Assembly: GCA_017451025.1 (NCBI GenBank)
Contig: JAFSSM010000003.1
Span: 1-64,000, forward strand
DNA length: 64,000 nt
DNA from: Synergistaceae bacterium
GTDB lineage: Bacteria > Synergistota > Synergistia > Synergistales > Aminobacteriaceae
Reading direction: 5' to 3'
In this document: in pieces, positions 21,169 through 22,264 of the stretch
How positions within the stretch are numbered: position 1 is the first letter of the stretch
Layout: every line of letters begins with the position of its first letter
Translations under genes and position numbers: made by a program
Notes under the pieces: model-generated
Told to the model about the DNA's origin: nothing
The model's input: only the letters and a program-made list of their open reading frames with translations
Database searches by the model: none

Positions 21169-21199
21169 CGGCTAATCTTAAGCAATAAGGAGGTTGACA

Positions 21200-21280
21200 G
21201 TGATGAATTTGCGTGAGTATAATGTTCGCGGTTCGCGGTTCGCGGTTCGCGGTTCGCGGTTCGCGCATAACCCGTCCTAA
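21200..21280 (+). CDS. Leader ORF carrying a GTTCGCG repeat
   Basis: AAGGAGG (21187-21193) is ideally spaced to GTG 21200 and ATG 21203, which share a frame. The ORF reads MNLREYN, then an Arg-Gly-Ser-Arg-Phe-Ala-Val period from the repeat, and stops at TAA 21278-21280. With one heptamer fewer or two more it would instead run to TGA 21333-21335, which overlaps ATG 21332 of the radical SAM gene. I infer a switchable leader peptide that controls translation by coupling; it may not itself make a functional product. Confidence 0.5.
   Translation: MMNLREYNVRGSRFAVRGSRFAHNPS
21224..21265 (+). repeat. GTTCGCG heptanucleotide repeat, 6 perfect units
   Basis: Six identical 7-bp units lie inside the leader ORF. 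Seven is not a multiple of three, so each slippage event changes the leader frame. The tract is perfect, which suggests active slippage or recent expansion. Confidence 0.95.
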
Positions 21281-21331
21281 ATTTCACCCTAATAATGCTT
21301 GTTCCCTTTGTTGTGCGGAGGCATCCTCGCT

Positions 21332-22264
21332 ATGAAGTACCTCGCCAAAAAACTCCTCCGGTTTTTCCCGCCCTCATTCCACCATTTCGCACGAAACGTT
21401 TACACTCGCGGAAGAACTTTCTTCGGTTCATTGATCGTCCGCACAAAAATATTGCTCTCTCTCCCGCTCCGAAAAAGACTCCGGCAAATACACTTCGAGG
21501 TTCACCTGGCCGAACACTGCAACCTCAATTGCTATGCCTGCAACAACTTTTCACCCATAGCAGAGCCGGAATTTATCGGCATAGAAGAATTTCGGAGAGA
21601 CTTCGAGCGCATGGGAAGCATCTTCTCTCATGAATGCGAGCGTATCTACCTGCTCGGCGGAGAACCTCTGCTTCATCCGGAGATTAACACACTTATGGAG
21701 ATTGCCCGAGCCAATTTCAGCAAGGGGGATATATCCGTCTTCACTAATGGCCTTCTGCTCAAAAAAATGGACGACTCTTTCTGGAGGACATGTCATGACC
21801 AAAAAATCGGCATAATCCTTTCGGCATACCCCATTAAGCTAGATATTCAGGGGATTAATTCTCTTGCAGAAAAATTCGGCGTAAAGTTCCAATATGCATG
21901 GGGAGATTCCAGTTCTATGCATGACATGTTCTCGATAACTCCCCTTAACCTCAAGGGAGACAGCAACGCAAAACTGAACTTCGGTATATGCATAAGGGCT
22001 GTCAACTGCCTGACACTGAGTCACGGAAAATTATTCACATGTTCATTCATGCCGCACGTGCATCACTTCAACAAGAAGTTCGGTGAACACATAGAGATTA
22101 CGCCCGACGACTACGTCAACATTTATGATGATGTCAATGCGGAATACATCCTGCAGAAAATGAGTGAGCCTGTTCCTGCCTGCAGATACTGCCGCCTCGA
22201 TAATAAGTCGGTCAGGCTTGTGAAGTGGGGCATCTCGAAATGCGAGAAGAGTGAATGGGTCTAG
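21332..22264 (+). CDS. Radical SAM protein with a C-terminal Cys cluster
   Basis: 310 aa from ATG 21332, preceded by GGAGG; a TTG 33 bp upstream in frame lacks an SD. The SAM-binding cluster motif CNLNCYACNN is near residue 61, with LLGGEPLLHPEI after it and FTNGLLLKK near 145. C-terminal cysteines in CIRAVNC, FTCSFMP and ACRYCRLD suggest a SPASM or twitch-like auxiliary Fe-S cluster. An N-terminal extension of about 55 basic and hydrophobic residues (LLRFFPPSFHHFARNVYTRG) is unusual. Such enzymes occur in capsule and O-antigen loci; the substrate is unknown. The repeat leader upstream suggests phase-variable expression. Confidence 0.8.
   Translation: MKYLAKKLLRFFPPSFHHFARNVYTRGRTFFGSLIVRTKILLSLPLRKRLRQIHFEVHLAEHCNLNCYACNNFSPIAEPEFIGIEEFRRDFERMGSIFSHECERIYLLGGEPLLHPEINTLMEIARANFSKGDISVFTNGLLLKKMDDSFWRTCHDQKIGIILSAYPIKLDIQGINSLAEKFGVKFQYAWGDSSSMHDMFSITPLNLKGDSNAKLNFGICIRAVNCLTLSHGKLFTCSFMPHVHHFNKKFGEHIEITPDDYVNIYDDVNAEYILQKMSEPVPACRYCRLDNKSVRLVKWGISKCEKSEWV

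Follow-up and report, generated by a model that had tools for sequence, protein, structure and literature searches.

Descriptions of repeat-based switches usually deal with single genes and place the array either in the gene or in its promoter. In attenuation of the trp type, transcription is attenuated by way of a translated leader and the input is tRNA charging. In the lex2A/lex2B system of Haemophilus influenzae the repeats belong to a small ORF that precedes a glycosyltransferase gene. The lex2A repeats themselves are tetranucleotides (PMC3116884, PMC2651432). At the promoters of hmw1A and hmw2A in the same species, heptamer arrays modulate transcription through their copy number (PMC2651432), while phase variation of neuO in Escherichia coli K1 involves repeats of the heptanucleotide AAGACTC (PMC13001214). 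Translational coupling by overlapping stop and start codons is general and has been surveyed (PMC3711429). The literature searched contained no matching description of a module of the kind reported here or of phase variation in the bacterial group, taken to be Synergistetes/Synergistaceae. Here we describe what appears to be one standard module, consisting of a promoter, a Shine-Dalgarno (SD) sequence, a leader start inside a second consensus promoter and a repeat array, placed before many different genes.

The focal locus lies on the forward strand of the window, by which we mean the whole stretch of 64,000 nucleotides that was analyzed. TRF identified (GTTCGCG)6.0 with 100% matches at 21224-21265, in agreement with a sequence-only reading of this DNA that had placed six copies of the heptamer inside a leader ORF. 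That reading also had a strong SD sequence starting a short ORF through the heptamers, and such a sequence is present: AAGGAGG at 21187-21193 (+ strand), which in most cassettes is kept directly 5' of TTGACA, lies 9 nt upstream of the ATG at 21203. As sequenced, the leader ORF (21203-21280, + strand; translation MNLREYNVRGSRFAVRGSRFAHNPS*) stops at TAA 21278-21280, again as the reading had it. The leader frame moves with each unit gained or lost, and a script that changed unit number alone placed the leader stop 54 nt before the ATG at 21332 with 3, 6 or 9 units and 64 nt before it with 4, 7 or 10 units. With 5 or 8 units, that is with one unit fewer or two more as previously claimed, the leader ends at TGA 21333 and overlaps the ATG at 21332 as ATGA (21332-21335). 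The sequence following the array (21266-21335, + strand) forms the corresponding frame gate, in which TAA 21268 and TAA 21278 close two frames and the third is open to TGA 21333. By this arithmetic 5 and 8 units are ON and 3, 4, 6, 7, 9 and 10 units are OFF, a cycle of three, and the focal locus with its six units is predicted to be OFF by leader frame. The 7-nt unit, which is not a multiple of 3, lies inside the leader ORF, as in an SSR switch of the translational type, and the array starts directly after the −10 and not between −35 and −10, where a promoter-spacing SSR switch would carry it. Judged from sequence, the array and its layout are beyond chance, because the 2.35 Mb genome has no other site with three tandem copies of GTTCGCG and the layout recurs at homologous loci.

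The downstream gene (21332-22264, + strand) encodes a radical SAM protein of 310 aa, assigned from its homologues and from Pfam PF04055 (E=1e-8), the only family above cut-off. The ATG at 21332 is the homologous start, relatives beginning MK(K/E/Q)FL(R/K)KILPSP or similar, and the gene has an SD sequence of its own (GGAGG, 21317-21321, + strand) with the ATG 10 nt downstream. The frame of the gene is closed upstream by TAA 21290 and TAA 21293, and direct frame fusion is therefore impossible at this locus at any copy number. No intrinsic terminator lies between leader and gene at the focal locus, which places it outside the attenuation class, and a search of 20900-22400 for known RNA families returned none up to E=1. 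Sequestration of the gene's SD by a hairpin, GCGGAGGcatCCTCGC, was considered and rejected: it folds no better than shuffles (z 0.83), and across loci the SDs of the genes are not less accessible than those of shuffles (0.29 vs 0.25).

Our preferred reading, to which we give a probability of about 0.72, is that this locus is an SSR switch acting through a translated leader that is coupled to the radical SAM gene. A transcript from an upstream promoter, P1, would carry the strong SD sequence and the leader ORF through the heptamer array, and slippage in the array would change the number of units and shift the frame by one per unit. In two of the three frames the ribosome would stop just after the array (OFF), whereas in the third (5, 8, 11... 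units) the leader would end with TGA 21333 over the radical SAM ATG and permit re-initiation (ON). Dozens of genes in the genus would stand behind such a module, with three exits: direct fusion, ATGA coupling as at the focal locus, and coupling through an intrinsic terminator. The anatomy, the frame arithmetic and the conservation of the frame-to-start relation are observed directly; what we infer is that the array slips in vivo, that the leader mRNA begins at P1 and that expression is lost in the OFF frames. The earlier proposal of phase variation by leader-peptide coupling is supported.

What the sequence-only reading overlooked, while its leader and array were confirmed, is a perfect promoter overlapping the leader start. 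This promoter, P2 (21194-21223, + strand), has the form TTGACA-N18-TATAAT and matches the sigma-70 consensus at 12/12 positions. Its TTGACA follows AAGGAGG directly, with no gap, its TATAAT ends where the array begins, and the leader ATG at 21203 sits in its spacer. A P2 transcript would start inside the array and could not contain the leader start codon, and the leader would therefore have to be read from the upstream extended −10 promoter, P1 (TGTGCTATAAT, 21158-21168, + strand), placed 31 nt upstream of TTGACA. P1 is the likely start of the leader transcript, given that an extended −10 is found upstream of TTGACA in 47 of 72 cassettes against 3.5 expected from shuffles; we infer that the leader mRNA is made by P1 or by read-through.

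Searches by protein similarity recovered radical SAM paralogues from the same genome as well as homologues from five further species of the genus. Eight such homologues, the focal one included, carry an array with a leader, in a block that runs P1, SD sequence (weak in L010), TTGAC(A/G), 18 nt, TATAAT, array of 7-nt units, gene. The sequence-only reading had looked to relatives for a leader frame ending at ATGA, and in 6 of these 8 one frame does end exactly in ATGA or TTGA at the homologous start, the remaining 2 coming within 7 nt of it. One radical SAM paralogue (G000:C46:27307-28058; L028, L029) has a frameshift in a stretch of eight consecutive C, which points either to a homopolymer switch or to decay of the gene.

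Additional cassettes were found by pattern searches across the genus, using one genome per species, and 72 nonredundant cassettes with enough downstream sequence made up the sample for frame analysis. In 26 of the 72 the gene frame is open back to the array (fusion type). A test set of 45 cassettes with a separate gene and a start candidate was compared with dinucleotide shuffles, scoring as near-start a first stop, in one post-array frame, at −6 to +8 nt from the gene start. Near-start stops were present in 40/45 cassettes (16.3 expected, P=8e-16), and an exact ATGA/GTGA/TTGA overlap in 24/45 (8.9 expected, P=3e-9). When tails at least 60% alike were removed, by greedy filtering since single linkage at 65% joined short tails that are unrelated, 17 exact overlaps (vs 5.4) and 29 near-start stops (vs 10.4) were retained; with the first ATG fixed beforehand the counts were 20 (vs 7.9) and 35 (vs 14.6), respectively. 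For a stop at the gene start in one frame, P overall is 1e-13 to 1e-15 against the dinucleotide shuffles, filtered sets included. A stop that overlaps or adjoins the downstream start and is kept in relatives is the pattern of translational coupling, and the result goes against one refuting condition of the sequence-only reading, a leader lacking conservation in relatives. The cassette units are 7 or 5 nt long, with 38 distinct units among the 72 cassettes, and none of the 38 has a stop in any frame (33.4 stop-free units expected). In leaders whose frame would read the TAA in TATAAT, the −10 is TACAAT or TAAAAT in 4/4 cases, one of them (L037) read by eye and leaders with a stop there not being counted as leaders. 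These features are further signs pointing to leader translation, the second of them supporting only. A conserved tail, GTAGCTTAGTCTGTCC, just 3' of the array in L019, L033, L060, L104 and others has stops in two frames, with the third open, and reads as a frame gate.

A strong hairpin followed by T residues lies between array and gene in 6 of 46 separate loci (L038, L082, L083, L010, L125 and L062), downstream of the array, where 0.2 would be expected. At each of these loci both OFF frames are closed ahead of the hairpin and the remaining frame passes through it to near the gene start, and these cassettes look like candidate phase-variable attenuators. The earlier suggestion of a different mechanism in the same genome also holds, since fused, coupled and terminator exits are found side by side, but as exits of a single module.

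Across the genus, the −10 is followed immediately by an array in 77 of 97 promoters of the P2 form. The strict cassette pattern was found in 22/43 genomes of the genus and in 0/140 genomes from elsewhere in the order, the control giving one hit, and the pattern is by this search restricted to the genus. The cassette search found three more members in the window, all on the + strand: a GACCA pentamer array (14795-14857) adjoining TTGACA-N17-TACGAT, with its frame fused into a glycosyltransferase-like gene; a GACAA array (15876-15929) adjoining TTGACA-N16-TACAAT, recovered also by a promoter-blind survey; and a GACCA array (42327-42384) adjoining TTGACA-N17-TACGAT. The cargo genes include GT2, GT4, GT11, radical SAM, methyltransferase, ATP-grasp, MBOAT and LicD genes, a repertoire that fits variation of surface polysaccharides, and the GT2, GT4, GT11, methyltransferase, MBOAT and LicD genes among them are of kinds that are often phase-varied. 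Of the 62 leaders that could be scored, only 11 have the ON frame, below one third (P=0.005), with about 2/17 in the genome itself, and this low share counts against our preferred reading. Several contigs end inside repeat arrays (window 1-27, an AAGTC array; G000:C36:1; the end of C36; G000:C24:28912), which suggests that the assembly failed there because of repeated cassettes or mixed copy numbers. Another class of intergenic repeat, similar to GGGATA/AGGGATA, occurs at 12999-13041 and 6749-6770 of the window and at L188:1340 and L178:19832; these repeats have neither promoter nor leader, and some adjoin gene ends.

P2 might be the working promoter, with the array as the first sequence transcribed, its copy number tuning transcription or the 5'-UTR, and the leader ORF an accident. 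In favor of this, besides the perfect consensus, 8/8 of the homologues, which were found independently of P2 and whose spacers average 0.70 majority identity, show no variation in TTGAC, in the 18-nt spacing or in TATAAT, and in a promoter-blind survey of 859 kb of the genome 16 of 26 exact 5- or 7-nt arrays adjoin a promoter matching at least 10/12 positions (null 0.13% per strand). None of the 3-, 4- or 6-nt arrays in the same survey has such a promoter. The frame-to-start relation, the SD sequence before TTGACA and the stop-avoiding changes in the −10 are all left unaccounted for, however, at the 26 fused loci a P2 transcript would lack the leader start codon, and about one third of the surveyed arrays have no good P2, several of those inspected still keeping SD sequence and leader. 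We regard P2 acting purely as the working promoter as improbable. Still less credible, and already disfavored, is that the array and the frame relation arose by chance or persist as neutral remnants of promoter cassettes that were duplicated. Some cassettes within one genome are indeed near copies, and L019 and L025 have a leader start in common, but among tails less than 60% identical P is still about 1e-7 to 1e-13, 61 of 65 spacers are distinct, and the post-array tails (36-127 nt) have diverged.

A milder alternative, and a sub-case of our preferred reading with which its probability overlaps, is that both promoters act, P1 mRNA being gated by frame and P2 mRNA providing a constant basal level through the SD of the gene, so that the switch is between high and low. 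P1 and P2 both look conserved, the radical SAM gene has its own SD sequence, and a consensus P2 should yield leaderless transcripts that carry it, which counts against the preferred reading. A good SD sequence for which no hiding structure was found likewise counts against silent OFF frames at the focal locus; because of it the strength of the OFF state there is uncertain, and the focal switch is possibly high/low instead of on/off. Against joint action of the two promoters, P2 is also present at fused and terminator loci, although transcripts from it would there be of no use or would be terminated. Joint action is a serious candidate that falls somewhat short of even odds. The retention of P2 at loci whose genes could not profit from its transcripts bears on one further proposal, a genus-wide module in which the array coincides with the transcription start of a consensus promoter and at the same time forms part of a leader ORF, the buried P2 acting on the array itself, for instance by melting that leads to slippage, and the leader gating the gene by fusion, coupling or attenuation. 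P2 would here not be kept for the mRNA of the gene, because it cannot make that mRNA at fused and terminator loci. We think this proposal unlikely, though less so than P2 as the sole working promoter.

If the switch through a translated leader is real, the genus would possess an ON/OFF code for surface-sugar-type genes that can be read from sequence, as well as a natural case of phase-variable attenuation, and it would allow a direct test of whether a promoter adjoining an array affects the mutation rate of that array. The module would escape gene finders that take no account of leader ORFs.

Compared with described systems, the focal locus has in common with neuO that units of 7 nt lie close to the 5' end of a translated frame and that copy number modulo 3 sets ON and OFF, and neuO, as a surface polysaccharide gene, also resembles the cargo of the module. 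In neuO, however, the repeats are in the coding sequence itself (the fusion type), whereas the focal array lies in a separate leader ending in ATGA. The lex2A/lex2B arrangement likewise has its repeats in a small ORF upstream, but it is a single locus with tetramers, whereas the present module extends across a genus and takes fused, coupled and terminator forms. The hmw1A and hmw2A genes are surface genes that also have heptamer arrays at their promoters; those arrays modulate transcription, while the focal array follows the −10 and forms part of an ORF. The overlap of the leader TGA with the gene ATG is that of general stop/start coupling, except that it is reached in only one of three frames set by the repeats. 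Finally, the six related cassettes with a terminator inside the leader, read through by the ON frame only, resemble attenuation of the trp type, with the differences that the input would be repeat copy number and that the focal locus itself is without a terminator.
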